From the NCBI GenBank assembly GCA_002707365.1, contig PAMQ01000014.1, forward strand, positions 72,638-136,637: a stretch of DNA of 64,000 nt, given 5' to 3'. Source of the stretch: Trueperaceae bacterium (GTDB lineage: Bacteria; Deinococcota; Deinococci; Deinococcales; Trueperaceae). The notes under the pieces were generated by a model. It was not told the DNA's origin. It was given only the letters and a program-made list of their open reading frames with translations, and made no database searches. Position numbers and translations under genes: made by a program. Numbering within the stretch: position 1 is the first letter of the stretch; every line of letters begins with the position of its first letter. This document shows positions 37,204-49,154 of the stretch, piece by piece.

Positions 37204-37860
37204 TCAGGAACCCACCTGACCACGAATGAGCATAGCTAGCTCCTTTGATAAAATCTCTGTACGATTGCCAAAATAGACATGAATGAGGCCCCCGATGGGT
37301 TCCGTTTTTCTGACTTGAATACGTTGTCCTGGGTGTATACCAAGTTGTGCTATGTAAGTTAAGACGTCTGGTGCCTGAGTCATTAGTCGAGAAACCTCGA
37401 GGATTTGGCCAACCTCAAGTTCAGCAAGCGGGGTGTTAGGAGTGTTTGGGAAGTCACCCGCTGGCCCTGGTATTGGGTCACCATGTGGATCGTGGGTCGG
37501 ATGCCCTAATAAATCGGCAAGGCGTTCAGTAAAGCGTTCACTTACAGCATGCTCAAGGCGTTCTGCTTCTTCGTGAACTTCAGCCCAGGTGTACCCTAGG
37601 TGTTCAAGCAGAAATGTTTCTATCAGACGATGTCCCCGTAGAAGTCGCAGTGCTCGGCGGGAACCAGAGGGAGTGAGGCGTACTCCGTGATAGGGTTCGT
37701 GCTCGACGAACCCTAGGTCTTGTAATTTACCTAGCATCGATGAAACAGAAGGTGCTGCCACATTGAGTTGCTCAGCAAGGGCATTAGTTGAGGCAGATGC
37801 GTCCTTGGCAATCAACCATATAGCTTTGAGGTAGTCCTCTATGGAGGTAGAAACCTTCAT
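37204..37860 (-). CDS. DtxR/MntR-family metal-dependent regulator
   Basis: About 218 residues in three parts: winged helix (STNALAEQLNVAAPSVSSML), dimerisation/metal domain and a FeoA/SH3-like C-terminal domain. Ancillary ligands His and Glu are in GHRLIETFL; the primary site reads EAERLEHAVSE, with Glu where the iron regulator IdeR has Cys102. That Glu-x-x-Glu-His pattern is MntR-like, so Mn2+ is the expected signal. Start ATG 37860 or 37878. Divergent from AraD1; no metal transporter is adjacent. Confidence 0.88.
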   Translation of the reverse strand: MKVSTSIEDYLKAIWLIAKDASASTNALAEQLNVAAPSVSSMLGKLQDLGFVEHEPYHGVRLTPSGSRRALRLLRGHRLIETFLLEHLGYTWAEVHEEAERLEHAVSERFTERLADLLGHPTHDPHGDPIPGPAGDFPNTPNTPLAELEVGQILEVSRLMTQAPDVLTYIAQLGIHPGQRIQVRKTEPIGGLIHVYFGNRTEILSKELAMLIRGQVGS

Positions 37861-37936
37861 GCGATCGGCCTTGGACATGTACAGAGAATACCAAGAAGTT
37901 AACCTTTTCCTATCAACAGGGTTTACAGTATTCACT

Positions 37937-41425: not shown

Positions 41426-42220
41426 TTACCGGAGATGCTGGCGGAGTTTGTTACTGACTAGTTCGACAACAACTACGATCAACAGGAGGGTAATAGTTAA
41501 AGTAGCGACTCTTTCGTATTGGAAAGAGCGAATGTAAAGCTGTATGTAAAACCCGATTCCTCCAGCACCAACAAGACCAAGTATTAGCGATTCTCGGAAG
41601 TTAAGCTCAAGTCGGAAAAGAGTGTCGCGGATAAGATCGGGCGCCACTTGTGGGAAGACGCCAAACCTAACGCGTTGCAAAAGTGTTGATCCGGCACTGT
41701 CGAGAGCTTCTAGAACACCAGGATCAGCGTTTTCGAATGCCTCGGCGTAAAACTTAGCGAGCATCCCAACCGAATGAACTGTTATTGCAAGGACACCGGG
41801 AAATGGACCTAAACCAACCGTACTGACAAAGAATAGTGCCAGCAGTATCAAGGGCACTGAGCGGATTCCACCAAGAAGCCATCGCAGTGGCTGCGCTAAC
41901 CATGGTGGTGAAAGGTTAGTGGCAACCAAGAGGGCAAGGGGAAAGGATAATAATACGCTGAAAAACGTTCCCACAAAGGCGATCTGAAGAGTTTCTAAGG
42001 TTGAGGTAAGAACCGTCGACATTACTGAAGTGTCAGGCGGGACCATCCTGCCTAAGAAATCCGACATTCGAGGCAGGCCTTTATATAATTTATTTAGATC
42101 AATCTCAGCTCCAGGTAAAGCCAACACCAAAAGGGTCACAACAATCCCTAGGAAGATGCCCACCTGGATCTTCCGTTGCCTATTATGGGTTTGAATTTTT
42201 TGTGCAAGCTCAGGCTTCAT
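41426..42220 (-). CDS. PhnE-like ABC transporter permease
   Basis: About 264 residues with six or so membrane segments; the permease signature resembles PhnE: AITVHSVGMLAKFYAEAFEN, then EALDSAGSTLLQRVRFGVFPQ and LELNFRESLILGLVGAGGIG. ATG 42220 has AAGGA upstream; its first bases overlap the ATPase gene by 11. Last gene of the peroxidase-transporter operon. Not proven to carry phosphonate. Confidence 0.9.
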   Translation of the reverse strand: MKPELAQKIQTHNRQRKIQVGIFLGIVVTLLVLALPGAEIDLNKLYKGLPRMSDFLGRMVPPDTSVMSTVLTSTLETLQIAFVGTFFSVLLSFPLALLVATNLSPPWLAQPLRWLLGGIRSVPLILLALFFVSTVGLGPFPGVLAITVHSVGMLAKFYAEAFENADPGVLEALDSAGSTLLQRVRFGVFPQVAPDLIRDTLFRLELNFRESLILGLVGAGGIGFYIQLYIRSFQYERVATLTITLLLIVVVVELVSNKLRQHLR

Positions 42221-43061
42221 GTATATCCTTTTCGGGAAAGACCTCAACGGTTTCCTTTAGCGCCTGGTAAGAGATTGAGTGAGCGTGATTTTCTCTGTCT
42301 TTTACGATGAGCCCGCCATTTAGTTCGACGATACGATTAGCATGAAGTTTAGCTAGTTCGGGTTGATGTAAAGCCATGATCAAAGTAACATTCCTTTGCC
42401 GACAGGCATTTTCTAGGAGAGACATGATTTCTGCTGCTGTATTTGGGTCAAGATTACTAACTGGTTCATCAGCAAGGATAAGATCAGGTTCCTGAACAAG
42501 TGCTCGGGCAATCCCCACTCTCTGTTGTTGGCCACCAGAAAGGCTGCTGACGCGTTGGAGGGCGTAGGGTTCTAAGTTGACATCCTGGATTGCCTGATTA
42601 GTCCTTAAATGATCCTGATCATTAAACCCGAGAAGTAAACTTTTAAGGCTTCCCTGCCAACCTAGCCGTCCCCACAATATGTTTTCATACACTGTTGCTC
42701 GTTCCACAAGGTGGAATGCCTGAAAAATGAAACCGATACGTCGACGAATTGTACGTCGACGAAAATCACCTGGGTTTATTCGATTTCCAAAAAGATAGAG
42801 GTTGCCTTGATCAAAAGGTACCCACCCGTTAATGAGTCGCAAGAGGGTCGTTTTGCCGGAGCCACTGGTTCCGACGAGAGCGACCCTCTCGCCTTGCGTG
42901 ATAGTCAGGTCAGGAAGAGTCATGCCAAAAGAGCTATTCGGGTAATTGACAGAAACACCTCCTAATAGCGATACGACGGGAGCTCCATCTGGGGCAGAAA
43001 TGTCGCGACCTATTTCGGGGACTATGGGACTATGTTTTTGAACAGGGCTGTTTCTACTCAA
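42210..43061 (-). CDS. PhnC-like ABC transporter ATPase
   Basis: A 283-residue ATPase. Walker A GTSGSGKTTLLRLINGW, signature LSGGQQQRVGIARALVQEP, Walker B DLILADEPVSNLDP and switch His in MALHQPELA. The long N-terminus (about 30 residues) is unusual. TTG start overlaps the binding-protein gene by eight bases. It forms the importer with the permease and the PhnD-like protein. Confidence 0.93.
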   Translation of the reverse strand: MSRNSPVQKHSPIVPEIGRDISAPDGAPVVSLLGGVSVNYPNSSFGMTLPDLTITQGERVALVGTSGSGKTTLLRLINGWVPFDQGNLYLFGNRINPGDFRRRTIRRRIGFIFQAFHLVERATVYENILWGRLGWQGSLKSLLLGFNDQDHLRTNQAIQDVNLEPYALQRVSSLSGGQQQRVGIARALVQEPDLILADEPVSNLDPNTAAEIMSLLENACRQRNVTLIMALHQPELAKLHANRIVELNGGLIVKDRENHAHSISYQALKETVEVFPEKDIHEA

Positions 43062-43929
43062 GGTAACCGTACTTCCGGGCTAACTCCCGGACGGAGTCGT
43101 ATGTGGAATCGGTTACCTTTACGTAGCCGTCATGCCCATATACGTATTGCAGTAGATGTTGGTAATCAGGTTCGTTAAGTTGCAACATCGCCTCGGTGAA
43201 GCGAGCAAGTAAATCCGGGTCTAAGTCTTGTCGCGCGACAACACTATGAGACGGGATCAAATCTGATTCTGCAATCCAGTCCACTTTCTCTAATTGCTCA
43301 GGGGTTAGTAGGAGCTCAGCGAACTGGCTTACTCCCGCTGCATCGACAAAGCCATTAGCCATGGCCTGAATAGCCTGCTGATAACCACCAGCGAAGAAAA
43401 CAGCATCAAAGAATCTCGTCGGATTTTCTTCTGGGTCAATAAGGCCAGCTTGAGTGAAGACATCAAGAGGGTAGAGGTACCCTGACTCAGATATCGGATC
43501 AGCAAAAGCAATGGTTTTATTGCGTAACTGCTCTAGATTAATAATCCCACTGTCTTTGCGTACAAAAATTCTGCCTCTATACACTGGGCTCCCACGATAA
43601 ATTTCCCCAAGGATCACTTTGACCCCTATCTGATCGTGGGCCAGTACGTAAGGTAGGCCTCCCATAAAAGAAATGTCGGCCTCGCCGTTACGCATAGCTT
43701 CAACAGCCGCAGCGTGGTCCTGTGAGACAAATCCTCGGACGTCTAAATCAAGCTCGGACTCAAGGTAGTGCGTAATCTTTGCAATATCACCTAGCAGCTT
43801 CTCAGGATTCTCCTGAGGAATAAAGGCCAGCGTTAGTGTCGATTGAGCAGTAACTAGACTCATAATGGTTATTAATGTGGTTATTAGGAAAGAGGCCTTA
43901 AGGAGTTTAGGCATGACGTTGGGTATCAT
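43054..43929 (-). CDS. PhnD-like periplasmic binding protein
   Basis: A 291-residue substrate-binding protein with an N-terminal signal peptide (SFLITTLITIMSLVTA about residues 13-28). The family pattern LTLAFIPQENPEKLL, VEAMRNGEADISFMGGLPYVLA, and DPISESGYLYPLDVF matches PhnD-type proteins, which bind phosphonate, phosphite, phosphate or, in other cases, arsenite. The start ATG overlaps the peroxidase gene's stop by four bases. Confidence 0.9.
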   Translation of the reverse strand: MIPNVMPKLLKASFLITTLITIMSLVTAQSTLTLAFIPQENPEKLLGDIAKITHYLESELDLDVRGFVSQDHAAAVEAMRNGEADISFMGGLPYVLAHDQIGVKVILGEIYRGSPVYRGRIFVRKDSGIINLEQLRNKTIAFADPISESGYLYPLDVFTQAGLIDPEENPTRFFDAVFFAGGYQQAIQAMANGFVDAAGVSQFAELLLTPEQLEKVDWIAESDLIPSHSVVARQDLDPDLLARFTEAMLQLNEPDYQHLLQYVYGHDGYVKVTDSTYDSVRELARKYGYLE

Positions 43930-45866
43930 TTAAGCTCCGGCCCGTAACGCTCCACCAAGTCGGAATAGAGTTGATAAGCATTGGAAGCTCTTTGCCAATC
44001 ATTAATTAAAATTGCCTCCATTACAGCGTCAAGGGCATCTGCCACTTCATAAACTAATGGTGCTTGGTCAAGATCGACTAAGCTCGTGGCGTCGGCTCGA
44101 AGATCTGGAGCTACTGTCTTAATGAGGAGGAGAGCATGAAACTTGTCCTGTCGTGGAATTAGAATAGTATCAAGCGTTGTCGCAAAGGTCGTTAGTTCAG
44201 ACCAAGCAAGTTTGAATACGGTGTTGCTGGAATCAAATATCTCGTACGGGTTGTCAGCACCACCAATCGCATTCAGGTAAGAGGTAAGATCCGTGAGCTG
44301 TCCGTCGTTTAAATCTAGGCTGTTAGTGTCGTTGAACCAATTTGCTACGTCACGCAAGGTCGCTAGAGAACCATTATGCATATAGGGGAAAGTGAAGGCA
44401 CTGTTTAATAGGGTCGGAGTTTCAAAGAAACCATCAAATGAGACCTCCGAATCAGTACCTGGAGCATCACTAGTTTCTCTCCCAGTACCAATATCGTGCA
44501 CTTGACCATCCTTGAAGGCCGAGTTAGGCATATGGCACGATGCACAGGAGTTTCCGTTAAAACCGTCAAACGGGGTTTGGAATATTACTTCTCCGCGCCG
44601 TGCAGATTCAGAAGCCAAATCGGTAAGGCTGCCATCAGGGTTAATCAGACTATTTGGTAGGAAATCGAATTCCTGTAAGTAAGCGATTAGCGCATCGAGC
44701 ATGAAGGGAGTGGGCTCCTCACCAGAAAACTCATTAACTATGACGTTCCGAGTGAAGTCACGGAGACTGCTGAAACGGCCGTCGCGTCCGTAAGGACCTG
44801 TGAAGCGAAGTCCACGGAGACTCGGCGTATCCAAGGAATCTCTGCGCTGGTCATTGAAAATGCTATTAAAAAATGCTCCGTCCACGTCAAAAGCACCTGG
44901 TTGGTGACTGATCCCCGGGATGAAAGCTCGTCGGTTAATGTCGCTCCGATTGTGACAGGTCGAACAGGTGATCCCAATAGACCGTGCGGGTTCCCCAAAA
45001 ATTTCTGGCGAGTCAAACAGCATGTCGCCGAATGCTACTAGTGGTAAGTCTATTTCGTCATGACCCTTCGCTTCAAAGTTAAGGCGCAAGAGTGGTAGGG
45101 GATCCTGGTCGTTTAGATCCGTCCCAGGTGGTAACACGGTAGGGAAGGCGCTTGAATCAACTGATCCAAGAATTGTTTCAGGAACGGGGGCAAATGTCAC
45201 GCGATCAGCGAAGGAGGCAGGTTCGTAATTAGCTAAGAGGTAGTCTTTGATAACGTTGCTAGCTTTGTGGAAAGCTTCTGCCTGAGCCTCTACGGTTCCA
45301 ATGCCAGCCACTCCTGCACTTCCAACGCTATTGGTCAAAGTAAGCCAAGAGATCCCAAGCTGTTTGTGTGAAACGGGATCAAGTTCCTGAAGGAAGTCTT
45401 GGCCAAAAGCCCGGAAGATCCTTTGAGCATTAAGGACGTCAGGTAATGCTGTCCCAGGATATTCTAGTTTTGACTCAGCTAGCGATAGGGTATGACGGAT
45501 CAGGTGGGAGGTAGAACGGGTTGTGACCTCGAAAAAGGCTTGAGGGTCTCGGGAGGCAATAGCCTCAAGCAGACTGCCAGCATAGGGACTCCCTACTTGC
45601 TCGAAAAGGTCAAGAACACTCCCATTGCCGTAACCGAGATCACTCACAGTACCCTGGTATTCGTTTGCAACAGTCAACCAGTCTATCGGCGCAAGGTTAA
45701 GGAAGAACACCGCTCTTCGGTAGCTTGCAGCCGCTGGGTGCCAGGGAGTATCTCGAGCAATGTGAGCCAAAGCCACTACCGTTGTTGACAGCAAGAACAT
45801 AGCGCAGAGAGTAGTGAGAACTCTAGAAAGATGTTGTTGACAAAGCCAGGCCCAAGCTTTAGCCAT
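43926..45866 (-). CDS. di-haem cytochrome c peroxidase/MauG-like protein with long extensions
   Basis: A 646-residue protein: signal/anchor helix (LTTLCAMFLLSTTVVALAHI), a helical N-terminal region of about 230 residues, then two c-type haem motifs, CSTCH (301-305) and CASCH (441-445), spaced as in bacterial di-haem peroxidases. DTPSLRG...GPYGRDGR in the first half and ETPTLLN...PYMHNGS (Met496, possible axial ligand) in the second are family patterns. About 110 helical residues follow the haem domains. Canonical peroxidases are about 330-350 residues. It heads an operon with the transporter genes and probably acts in the periplasm. Confidence 0.87.
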   Translation of the reverse strand: MAKAWAWLCQQHLSRVLTTLCAMFLLSTTVVALAHIARDTPWHPAAASYRRAVFFLNLAPIDWLTVANEYQGTVSDLGYGNGSVLDLFEQVGSPYAGSLLEAIASRDPQAFFEVTTRSTSHLIRHTLSLAESKLEYPGTALPDVLNAQRIFRAFGQDFLQELDPVSHKQLGISWLTLTNSVGSAGVAGIGTVEAQAEAFHKASNVIKDYLLANYEPASFADRVTFAPVPETILGSVDSSAFPTVLPPGTDLNDQDPLPLLRLNFEAKGHDEIDLPLVAFGDMLFDSPEIFGEPARSIGITCSTCHNRSDINRRAFIPGISHQPGAFDVDGAFFNSIFNDQRRDSLDTPSLRGLRFTGPYGRDGRFSSLRDFTRNVIVNEFSGEEPTPFMLDALIAYLQEFDFLPNSLINPDGSLTDLASESARRGEVIFQTPFDGFNGNSCASCHMPNSAFKDGQVHDIGTGRETSDAPGTDSEVSFDGFFETPTLLNSAFTFPYMHNGSLATLRDVANWFNDTNSLDLNDGQLTDLTSYLNAIGGADNPYEIFDSSNTVFKLAWSELTTFATTLDTILIPRQDKFHALLLIKTVAPDLRADATSLVDLDQAPLVYEVADALDAVMEAILINDWQRASNAYQLYSDLVERYGPELK

Positions 45867-46108
45867 GCCTAATTATATGTTCAACACCGCCAAATTTCAA
45901 GGTACATAGGTAAAATTAAATTAGGTATTAGGGTACTAAATAGCGTTTAAGTCTCACTAAACTACTCGGTGAATTACAGCTGATGTAGATGTTATTGAGA
46001 TTCAGTTTTCACTAAAATGTTTTGTTTCCATGTTGGGCTTCATACTGTCGAATAAACTTTGGTGAGTTAATTATAGAAAATTCATTGGTGCTGTGGGATG
46101 ATGGGCTT

Positions 46109-47023
46109 ATGCAAACTGTTTATGATCGGGATGGCTTTGAGGTTGTGCGGGGCGTTATTCCTGTTGGTGATCTTGAGCCGTTGCGTGATCGTATTAGTGA
46201 TCAGGTGGGGCTTCATGCTAAGCAGCTTCTTGATGAGGGTAAGGTTGATGATCTTTTTGAGGACCTGCCATTTGGGAAGCGTCTTGCTGCTCTTCATGCG
46301 AAGAGTGAGTTGCCGCTTAGGCAGTGGAACGAACCTTTCTTTGGACCTGAACTTCATGCGCTAATTAATCATTCTGGTATCGCTGAAGCTTTGGAGCCTC
46401 ACTTGGGCAGTAACGTTAGTTTTAATGGCGATTATCATTTGCGTCCGAAGTTGCCGGATAGCGAACGGACTGCTTTTCCGTTGCATCAGGATAGTCAGTA
46501 TTACGGTCAGGCGTCACGGCGTGCGCATATCGTTACGGTGTGGATCCCGTTGGTAGATGTTGATGAGACCAATGGTTGTTTGTACGTCATTCCGGGGAGT
46601 CATGAGTGGGAGCTTTTTGGTAGTGCTCGTGATGAACTTGGGAACATGCGGTCTTTTGAGGATGTTGAGGCTCGTGGTACGCCGGTACCGATCCCGATGG
46701 CGTTGGGTGATATTTTGTTGTTTTCTAACATGACTTTTCATGGCAGTAAGGTGAATCGTTCTAATGGTGTGCGTTGGAGTACCGACATTCGGTATATTCG
46801 TACTCCTGGAACGTATGACGCCTCAGATGAAGTTTTGGCTTCAGAGAAGTACATGGTGGACTTGTTAGCAAAGAACGGTCGACATGCGCCAATGGTGGTC
46901 CGGGGTGACGGAACCTCATCCTCTTTCGATCAGTGGAAAGAGAAATCTGAACTACGGCAAACTGAGGCCAAAACCCGCCGCTCTCATTCCAAAACTACCA
47001 GTACTATCGGTGATAAAAGTTAG
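46109..47023 (+). CDS. PhyH-family dioxygenase with T/G-ending codons
   Basis: About 304 residues. Iron ligands: His-Asp in FPLHQDSQYYG and distal His in NMTFHGSKVN, with Arg in VRWSTDIRY for 2-oxoglutarate. It shares TVWIPLVDVDETNGCLY and the later PIPMALGD...F.N.T.H with the PhyH at 48124-49044. Codons in 46109-46815 nearly all end in T or G, giving open antisense frames; the last 200 bases return to ordinary use. Start at ATG 46109 by homology. Confidence 0.87.
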   Translation: MQTVYDRDGFEVVRGVIPVGDLEPLRDRISDQVGLHAKQLLDEGKVDDLFEDLPFGKRLAALHAKSELPLRQWNEPFFGPELHALINHSGIAEALEPHLGSNVSFNGDYHLRPKLPDSERTAFPLHQDSQYYGQASRRAHIVTVWIPLVDVDETNGCLYVIPGSHEWELFGSARDELGNMRSFEDVEARGTPVPIPMALGDILLFSNMTFHGSKVNRSNGVRWSTDIRYIRTPGTYDASDEVLASEKYMVDLLAKNGRHAPMVVRGDGTSSSFDQWKEKSELRQTEAKTRRSHSKTTSTIGDKS

Positions 47024-48123: not shown

Positions 48124-49044
48124 CTAAACTGGTTTGTATTGATTCTTCTCCCAGTCTGCGGTAGCTTGCCACTTCTTTAACCATTGACCCCAACTCATTC
48201 GTTTCGCAGGATCCTCGCTTTGAGCAACAAAGACAGGGTACCTTTCGTTTACTTCTTCTCCCATTTGGTGCCAGTCAAACGATTGTCCGGCAGGAGAATA
48301 CCTTAGGTCAATACTCCAACGGACAGTGTTCGTAGTGTTATTTCCTCCCGTATGCAGTGTCAGATTATTGAAGATAAGGACGTCGCCCACTGTCATGGGT
48401 ATTGGGGTGACTTCCCCATAATCGTTGATTGCTCTGATGGGTTGCCATTGTCGATCATTGTCTCTTTTGAAGGGAATCGCACCGTGTCGATTACTACCTT
48501 TCACCAGTTTCAAGCATCCGTTGGTCTCATCAACATTCACGAGAGGAATCCAAACCGTTAGGACAGTCTCCGGGGGGTAGCAATTGATAGTAGTGTCCCG
48601 GTTATTCTGACCAAGAAAATAGGTACTGTCCTGGTGCCAACGCAAAGGCTTATCAGCTTTTCCCCTAGTCATACACCGTATCCAGTAGTCTCCATGACCG
48701 TTGACTTCTGGCCCTAGAATTAACCCGATCAATTGAGCCAAACGATCGTGTGTGTAGAGGTCGTAAATTGACGAACTAATTAAGCCCTGTCTCCCACCCC
48801 ATTGAGAAGGTCGATCTTTAGGTTCAACTAACTGCTGGCTTACAAGTTCCCAGCGGGTTTCGAAAGAAGCCTCTTCATGAGGGTTATCGATTTTCCCGAC
48901 TTCGAGTAAATATTGGACTTTCTGATCAACATAGGACTCTATTGTTTTACGTTGTGCCTCAATAGTTTTTGCGTTAATAAGCTGCGGCACGAGAAGATAC
49001 CCATCCTGTAGGTACTGTTCCCGGCTGTAACTGCTGAGATTCAT
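48124..49044 (-). CDS. PhyH-family dioxygenase
   Basis: About 306 residues. Iron site LRWHQDSTYFLG and distal His in NNLTLHTGGNN; Arg in VRWSIDLRYSP. The central VWIPLVNVDETNGCL is shared with the PhyH at 46109, so these are paralogues. A cap region RTTINCYPPETVL-like segment follows the ligands. Start ATG 49044 with AGAGG upstream. It converges with the SDR at 47335. Confidence 0.9.
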   Translation of the reverse strand: MNLSSYSREQYLQDGYLLVPQLINAKTIEAQRKTIESYVDQKVQYLLEVGKIDNPHEEASFETRWELVSQQLVEPKDRPSQWGGRQGLISSSIYDLYTHDRLAQLIGLILGPEVNGHGDYWIRCMTRGKADKPLRWHQDSTYFLGQNNRDTTINCYPPETVLTVWIPLVNVDETNGCLKLVKGSNRHGAIPFKRDNDRQWQPIRAINDYGEVTPIPMTVGDVLIFNNLTLHTGGNNTTNTVRWSIDLRYSPAGQSFDWHQMGEEVNERYPVFVAQSEDPAKRMSWGQWLKKWQATADWEKNQYKPV

Positions 49045-49154
49045 TACGGCACACCTCTCGAAACAGCTTACTTGCCTATACACTAACAGTAGTTTAGGCG
49101 TTATGTTGCCGGATCGACCATACTTGGTGGTCTCATATCATGTACGATTGAAAC

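Follow-up and report, generated by a model that had tools for sequence, protein, structure and literature searches.

A conserved operon joining a PhnD/C/E-type importer to a divergent di-haem enzyme probably serves manganese uptake under MntR/DtxR-type control

The 64,000-nucleotide stretch of Trueperaceae DNA analysed here (the window) carries a four-gene operon encoding an exported di-haem enzyme of the CcP/MauG superfamily together with the binding protein, ATPase and permease of a PhnD/C/E-type ABC importer. Comparison of this operon with its relatives leads us to propose that it encodes an MntR/DtxR-regulated Mn(II) importer with a coupled, divergent di-haem enzyme, a reading that we consider probable. 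That the ligand is a metal cation appears highly likely, while its narrower assignment to Mn(II) is probable, and transport would be directed into the cell. In what follows, G000 denotes the window's own genome (an assembly of 2.08 Mb in 19 contigs, 97% complete), G002 a relative from the same family, G235 an alphaproteobacterial metagenome-assembled genome, L028 a Rhodobacteraceae metagenome-assembled genome and G111 another operon-bearing genome. By its proteins, too, G000 is probably of Deinococcota, since the nearest PDB match of its ClpB is 1qvr, the Thermus protein, and its DtxR-type regulator scores best with a 'MntRTherm' model.

The gene order is the first line of evidence. Gene calls and profile searches confirmed what a first-pass annotation of this DNA had described, namely four minus-strand genes that overlap by 4, 8 and 11 bases and begin with a di-haem enzyme of 646 residues (Table 1). 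For the permease gene we chose the ATG at 42220 over an alternative in-frame TTG at 42247, in agreement with the start of the G002 homologue. The same order is present in G002, where the first two proteins are 66% and 76% identical to those of the window, and all four genes are likewise found in G235 and L028. Furthermore, matches spanning at least 80% of the di-haem protein, with about 47-54% identity, occur in 43 plasmid records, their hosts including Roseovarius, Phaeobacter, Tritonibacter, Salipiger, Martelella, Labrenzia/Roseibium, Leisingera and others. Fourteen of the 15 plasmid regions inspected keep the four-gene order; the remaining one is a decayed copy on a Roseovarius S88 plasmid (L142, NZ_CP146070), with a binding-protein gene that is broken off near the record end. 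In a second decayed copy (L167, in G882), an in-frame TGA interrupts the gene for the di-haem enzyme. The order recurs across dozens of Rhodobacterales and Hyphomicrobiales loci, many of them plasmid-borne, with about 50% identity between the phyla, and nearly all loci show an overlap of 1-4 bases between the genes for the di-haem enzyme and the binding protein. The order is thus not due to chance, and the first-pass view of these genes as a unit is borne out by their conservation in other genomes.

The operon occurs sporadically: within the window's phylum it was found in 2 of 111 genomes. Two full-length cases were detected among 385 genomes sampled from the class of L028, and the figure for its order is 20 of 395. 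The sporadic occurrence, the frequent location on plasmids and the roughly 50% identity across two phyla suggest that the operon has spread by horizontal transfer; no relatives were found in the viral contigs that were searched. On plasmids (L035, L036, L044, L046 and L140-L149) the surrounding islands repeatedly hold genes for Sco1, PCuAC, DUF411, DsbA/B, ZIP, CDF and P-type ATPase proteins as well as for LspA, Lnt, an M23 peptidase and an L,D-transpeptidase, and one island adjoins merA. With the operon, these islands are a mobile metal and envelope package, and the metal genes around the plasmid copies speak for a metal substrate.

The second line of evidence concerns regulation. A divergent mntR gene lies directly upstream of the di-haem gene in 35 of the 36 alphaproteobacterial loci, the 35 comprising six loci inspected first and, beyond these, 10 plasmids and 19 genomes from the same taxonomic order. 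All four mntR products that were scored reach 193-206 bits, above the cut-off of 153 set for MntR in NCBIfam, and display the D/E/H/E/E/H pattern of metal ligands typical of MntR. The alphaproteobacterial promoters carry the palindrome TTAG[A/C]C-N4-CTAA; expressed as TTAGSN5CTAA, it is exact in 24 of the 35 loci and has one mismatch in 11, with L146 containing it only at a different, weaker place. Its Deinococcota form, TTAGGC-N2-[GC]CTAA, is found upstream of the operon as TTAGGCATGGCTAA in the window and as TTAGGCATGCCTAA in G002, and was equalled by 7 of 1000 dinucleotide shuffles for the window and by none of 1000 for G002, values that are descriptive because the pattern was derived from these loci. 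The TAGC-N4-GCTA core of the palindrome is probably shared with the MntR box of E. coli. In the window, the palindrome overlaps the -10 hexamer of the predicted promoter as well as the codon at which the di-haem gene starts, and since the ATG begins only 5 bases after the -10 hexamer and itself lies within the operator, the operon transcript is probably leaderless.

A single DtxR-family gene was found in G000, at a distance of 3.5 kb from the operon, and by our rough estimate the chance of such closeness in a 2.08 Mb genome is about 0.5%. Its product scores best with the NCBI 'MntRTherm' model and has a Lys at MntR position 11 (Glu11 in MntR), as is reported for DR2539 of Deinococcus radiodurans, which represses the manganese importer gene mntH in a Mn(II)/Fe(II)-dependent manner (PMC3327659). 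This gene probably encodes the regulator of the operon. When a wider regulon was sought in G000, the remaining palindromes with one mismatch all fell within coding regions, and those with two mismatches were about as frequent as in the control. Gene order and operator together strongly indicate that MntR/DtxR-type repressors control the operon, and a regulator and operator of this type point to a metal cation as the ligand.

The third line of evidence comes from the binding protein. Phosphite in its binding protein Te_PtxB is contacted by Y55, Y100, S130, T131, S132 and H160, with Y208 as a cap that D22 supports (PMC5700983). Alignment of Te_PtxB with the window's protein pairs these residues with H72, Y117, S147, E148, S149, Y183, H228 and Q39, respectively, so that the S-T-S...H oxyanion motif is not kept and appears as S-E-S with Y183. 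Within the family, 36-37 of 37 members have exactly H72, E148, Y183 and H228, the lone dash reflecting an incomplete translation. At the same four positions, 15 aligned ordinary PhnDs of Deinococcota have Y/F, A, H and D (nine further rows were left out of this comparison, as they represented wrong reading frames), and the canonical PhnDs of G002 and G111 lack the H72/E148/Y183/H228 set. H72, H228 and E148 should point into a single site, since the corresponding PtxB residues all contact the same ligand. A His/His/Glu set is of the kind found in manganese, iron and zinc binding proteins. As judged by this alignment, the phosphorus site is lost and His/Glu residues are gained, and the predicted His2-Glu (plus Tyr) pocket is suited to a cation.

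These replacements bear directly on the ligands that the first-pass annotation had considered. Import of phosphonate, phosphite or phosphate, with the peroxidase either incidental or acting on the compound, would agree with the profile names, for the binding protein matches Phosphonate-bd (PF12974) at 203 bits (cut-off 27) and the PhnD-family model TIGR01098 at 169.9 bits (cut-off 112), and the permease reaches 273 bits with the PhnE model TIGR01097, above its equivalog cut-off of 216.7. The permease is, however, the sole operon protein to pass such a cut-off, the binding protein remaining below that of PhnD (TIGR03431; 174.6 versus 261.1 bits) and the ATPase, which matches ABC_tran at 114 bits, below that of PhnC (225.3 versus 266.1 bits). 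Moreover, the phosphite residues are replaced by His, Glu and Tyr throughout the family, control is of the MntR type, and a search for the C-P lyase protein PhnJ in G000, G002 and G235 found none. G111 does have a C-P lyase gene, yet the PhnD gene found near it, at a distance of about 6 kb, is another one of the canonical kind, with the operon on another contig. We therefore regard a phosphorus ligand as very unlikely. Arsenite or another oxyanion such as selenite appears likewise very unlikely. The solved structures closest to the binding protein do include those of the arsenic sensors AioX and ArrX (the best match in the PDB being of the PtxB/PhnD type, with a profile E value of 1e-27), and one plasmid island includes an arsenic resistance gene; against this, the mature protein contains no cysteine, the MntR/DtxR-type regulator and operator indicate a metal cation, and the invariant Glu in the predicted pocket would repel anions.

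The choice of metal was considered in the context of the other importers of G000. No Nramp protein was found in this genome, and its single ZnuA-like protein, which has a His-rich loop of the zinc type, is encoded beside genes for an ATPase and a permease and looks like part of a zinc importer. The operon is therefore a reasonable candidate for the manganese importer of G000.

Several observations weigh against this assignment. ZnuA-type importers can carry manganese, so G000 may not depend on the operon for this metal. The metal genes near the plasmid-borne operons concern Cu, Zn, Cd and Hg and not Mn, and most of the alphaproteobacterial loci are mutually related and hence not independent. 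The co-location of H72, E148 and H228 rests on the alignment with PtxB, as the AlphaFold model of the binding protein (built from two sequences, pLDDT 55) is too poor for pocket geometry. The operon is also kept in G235, the only alphaproteobacterial locus without mntR, where neither the palindrome at the locus nor any DtxR-family gene in the assembly was found. Finally, repressors of the DR2539 type respond to Fe(II) as well as to Mn(II) (PMC3327659), which is in line with the same machine serving another divalent metal, namely Fe(II), Zn(II) or, less likely, Cu, Ni or Co. The abundance of Zn and Cu genes in the plasmid islands, the fit of a His2-Glu site to Zn and Fe, and the iron system EfeUOB, which likewise combines a haem peroxidase, a periplasmic protein and a permease, are consistent with such a substrate; the plasmid regulators, however, are MntR-family proteins of the E. 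coli type whose selectivity positions are occupied by Glu, and we consider another metal a possible but distinctly less probable substrate than Mn(II).

We next consider the di-haem enzyme. It matches CCP_MauG over its core (46.1 bits, cut-off 25.6), and both CXXCH motifs (C301-H305 and C441-H445) as well as E379, the candidate distal Glu, are invariant in 37 of 37 family members. At the position aligned to the axial residue of the C-terminal haem, presumably Met in CcP and Tyr in MauG and MbnH, all 37 proteins have Phe511, and the place of the inter-haem Trp is taken by Arg361 in one alignment, the linker alignment being ambiguous in another. Because F511 and apparently R361 replace hallmark residues, peroxidase or MauG-like chemistry is not to be assumed. 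The core is flanked by an N-terminal extension of about 190 residues (~36-228) and a C-terminal one of about 100 residues (~545-646). The extensions, whose modelling the first-pass annotation had proposed, are both predicted to be helical with moderate confidence; the AlphaFold model of the enzyme (seven sequences) reached a pLDDT of 48, neither extension matches any Pfam family, and the two have no detectable kinship with each other (hhalign probability 2.5%). Foldseek matches of the model to PsbQ of photosystem II and to cytochrome c' four-helix bundles had probabilities of about 1 but E values of at least 0.16 and were dismissed as generic helical bundles.

Short stand-alone relatives of the enzyme (~420-455 residues) in other Alphaproteobacteria share R361 and F511 and have no PhnD-type binding protein alongside, which argues that this enzyme type is wider than the operon. 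Cytochrome oxidase genes are present in three of the short-enzyme loci (L072, L073 and L075). Among the di-haem proteins compared, Trp510 is confined to operon members.

By analogy with EfeUOB, the likeliest role of the di-haem enzyme would be a redox step on the metal or the removal of peroxide beside it, and action on the imported substance itself is possible. Maturation of the binding protein in the style of MbnH/MbnP or MauG is the main alternative role, in which the enzyme would oxidise a residue of the binding protein to complete the metal site; this is compatible with metal import. There is precedent in MbnH, which modifies its neighbour MbnP, and the overlap of the two genes in nearly all loci, a weak match to the MbnH profile (52.6 bits versus a cut-off of 362.9) and the invariant Y183, still a possible target in the pocket, fit such a role. 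On the other hand, the axial Tyr is replaced by Phe511 and the inter-haem Trp apparently by Arg361, and Trp218 of the binding protein, the candidate for conversion to kynurenine, is Val in 12 of 37 members and was set aside. On balance, we consider a maturase unlikely.

In the metal-importer model, Mn (or Fe) shortage would cause the MntR/DtxR-type repressor to leave the palindrome over the promoter, allowing transcription of the operon. The His2-Glu (plus Tyr) site of the PhnD-fold protein would then capture periplasmic metal, which the PhnC/E-type pump would take into the cell, while the di-haem enzyme, exported and coupled in translation to its neighbour, the binding protein, would act on the metal or on that protein.

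Two genes for phytanoyl-CoA dioxygenase-like proteins lie just upstream of the operon (46022-47023 and 48124-49083). More such genes occur elsewhere in G000 (L094), and the family appears to be expanded despite the small size of the genome.

Table 1. Positions of the operon genes, their putative control elements and short relatives of the di-haem enzyme. Positions without a locus prefix are those of the window.
Feature	Position	Strand	Remarks
Di-haem enzyme, CcP/MauG superfamily	43926-45866	-	646 aa, exported
PhnD-family periplasmic binding protein	43054-43929	-	4-base overlap with di-haem gene
PhnC-type ABC ATPase	42210-43061	-	TTG start; 8-base overlap with binding-protein gene
PhnE-type ABC permease	41426-42220	-	ATG at 42220; 11-base overlap with ATPase gene
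DtxR/MntR-type operator-like palindrome TTAGGCATGGCTAA	45859-45872	-	0 mismatches to TTAGSN5CTAA
Predicted promoter TTGAAA-N17-TATAAT	45872-45900	-	read from sequence
DtxR-family repressor with FeoA domain	37204-37935	-	candidate operon regulator
Short di-haem enzyme	L070:6729-8075		
Short di-haem enzyme	L071:6361-7641		
Short di-haem enzyme	L072:5968-7332		
Short di-haem enzyme	L075:6180-7433		
Short di-haem enzyme	L077:6415-7719		

PhnDCE genes are often taken as evidence of phosphonate or phosphite use, and the public records of the loci described here carry a phosphonate-transport GO term. If this branch imports manganese, dozens of plasmids and several genomes are misannotated in this respect, a new fold joins those by which bacteria bind metals for import, and manganese uptake gains a haem enzyme, which raises the question of the job of a di-haem protein in metal import. 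The operon may also explain manganese supply in metal-stressed marine bacteria. We see roughly even chances that it represents a third Mn(II) importer architecture beside Nramp and the ZnuA/PsaA type, in which a PhnD fold has exchanged its oxyanion site for a metal site and is constantly joined by a divergent di-haem enzyme that processes the metal or the binding protein. Such importers would be spread over two phyla, mostly plasmid-borne, and hidden under the label of phosphonate transport.

No described system with the four-gene layout was found in the open-access papers searched, in keeping with the first-pass annotation, and the operon can be set beside known systems that share some of its parts. 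With PtxABC/PhnDCE it has folds and subunits of the importer in common but differs by Y55H, T131E, H160Y and Y208H (Te_PtxB numbering), by MntR/DtxR control, by the additional di-haem gene and by having no phosphorus-utilisation genes alongside. AioX and ArrX likewise represent a PhnD fold adapted to a non-phosphorus ligand, but they act in sensing within arsenic operons, whereas the protein described here has no cysteine and is encoded with an intact ABC importer. MntR-type control is shared with MntABC/SitABCD/PsaABC and MntH, metal import being only proposed for the operon, whose binding protein is of the PhnD family and not of the ZnuA/PsaA family (PF01297, cluster A-I, absent from its Pfam matches), whose transporter is not an Nramp protein and which adds a haem enzyme. 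As in MbnH/MbnP and MauG, a di-haem enzyme adjoins a periplasmic, probably metal-binding partner, but the present enzyme lacks the axial Tyr and apparently the bridging Trp, has large extensions and is paired with an ABC binding protein. The best working analogy is EfeUOB, in which a haem peroxidase is exported alongside an iron importer. EfeUOB/M likewise unites an exported haem enzyme, a periplasmic component and a permease in one metal-regulated operon (PMC9174327, PMC3577903), whereas profile searches found no FTR1 permease, DyP peroxidase or imelysin-like EfeO among the four operon proteins, which instead provide an ABC pump, a c-type di-haem enzyme and a PhnD fold.

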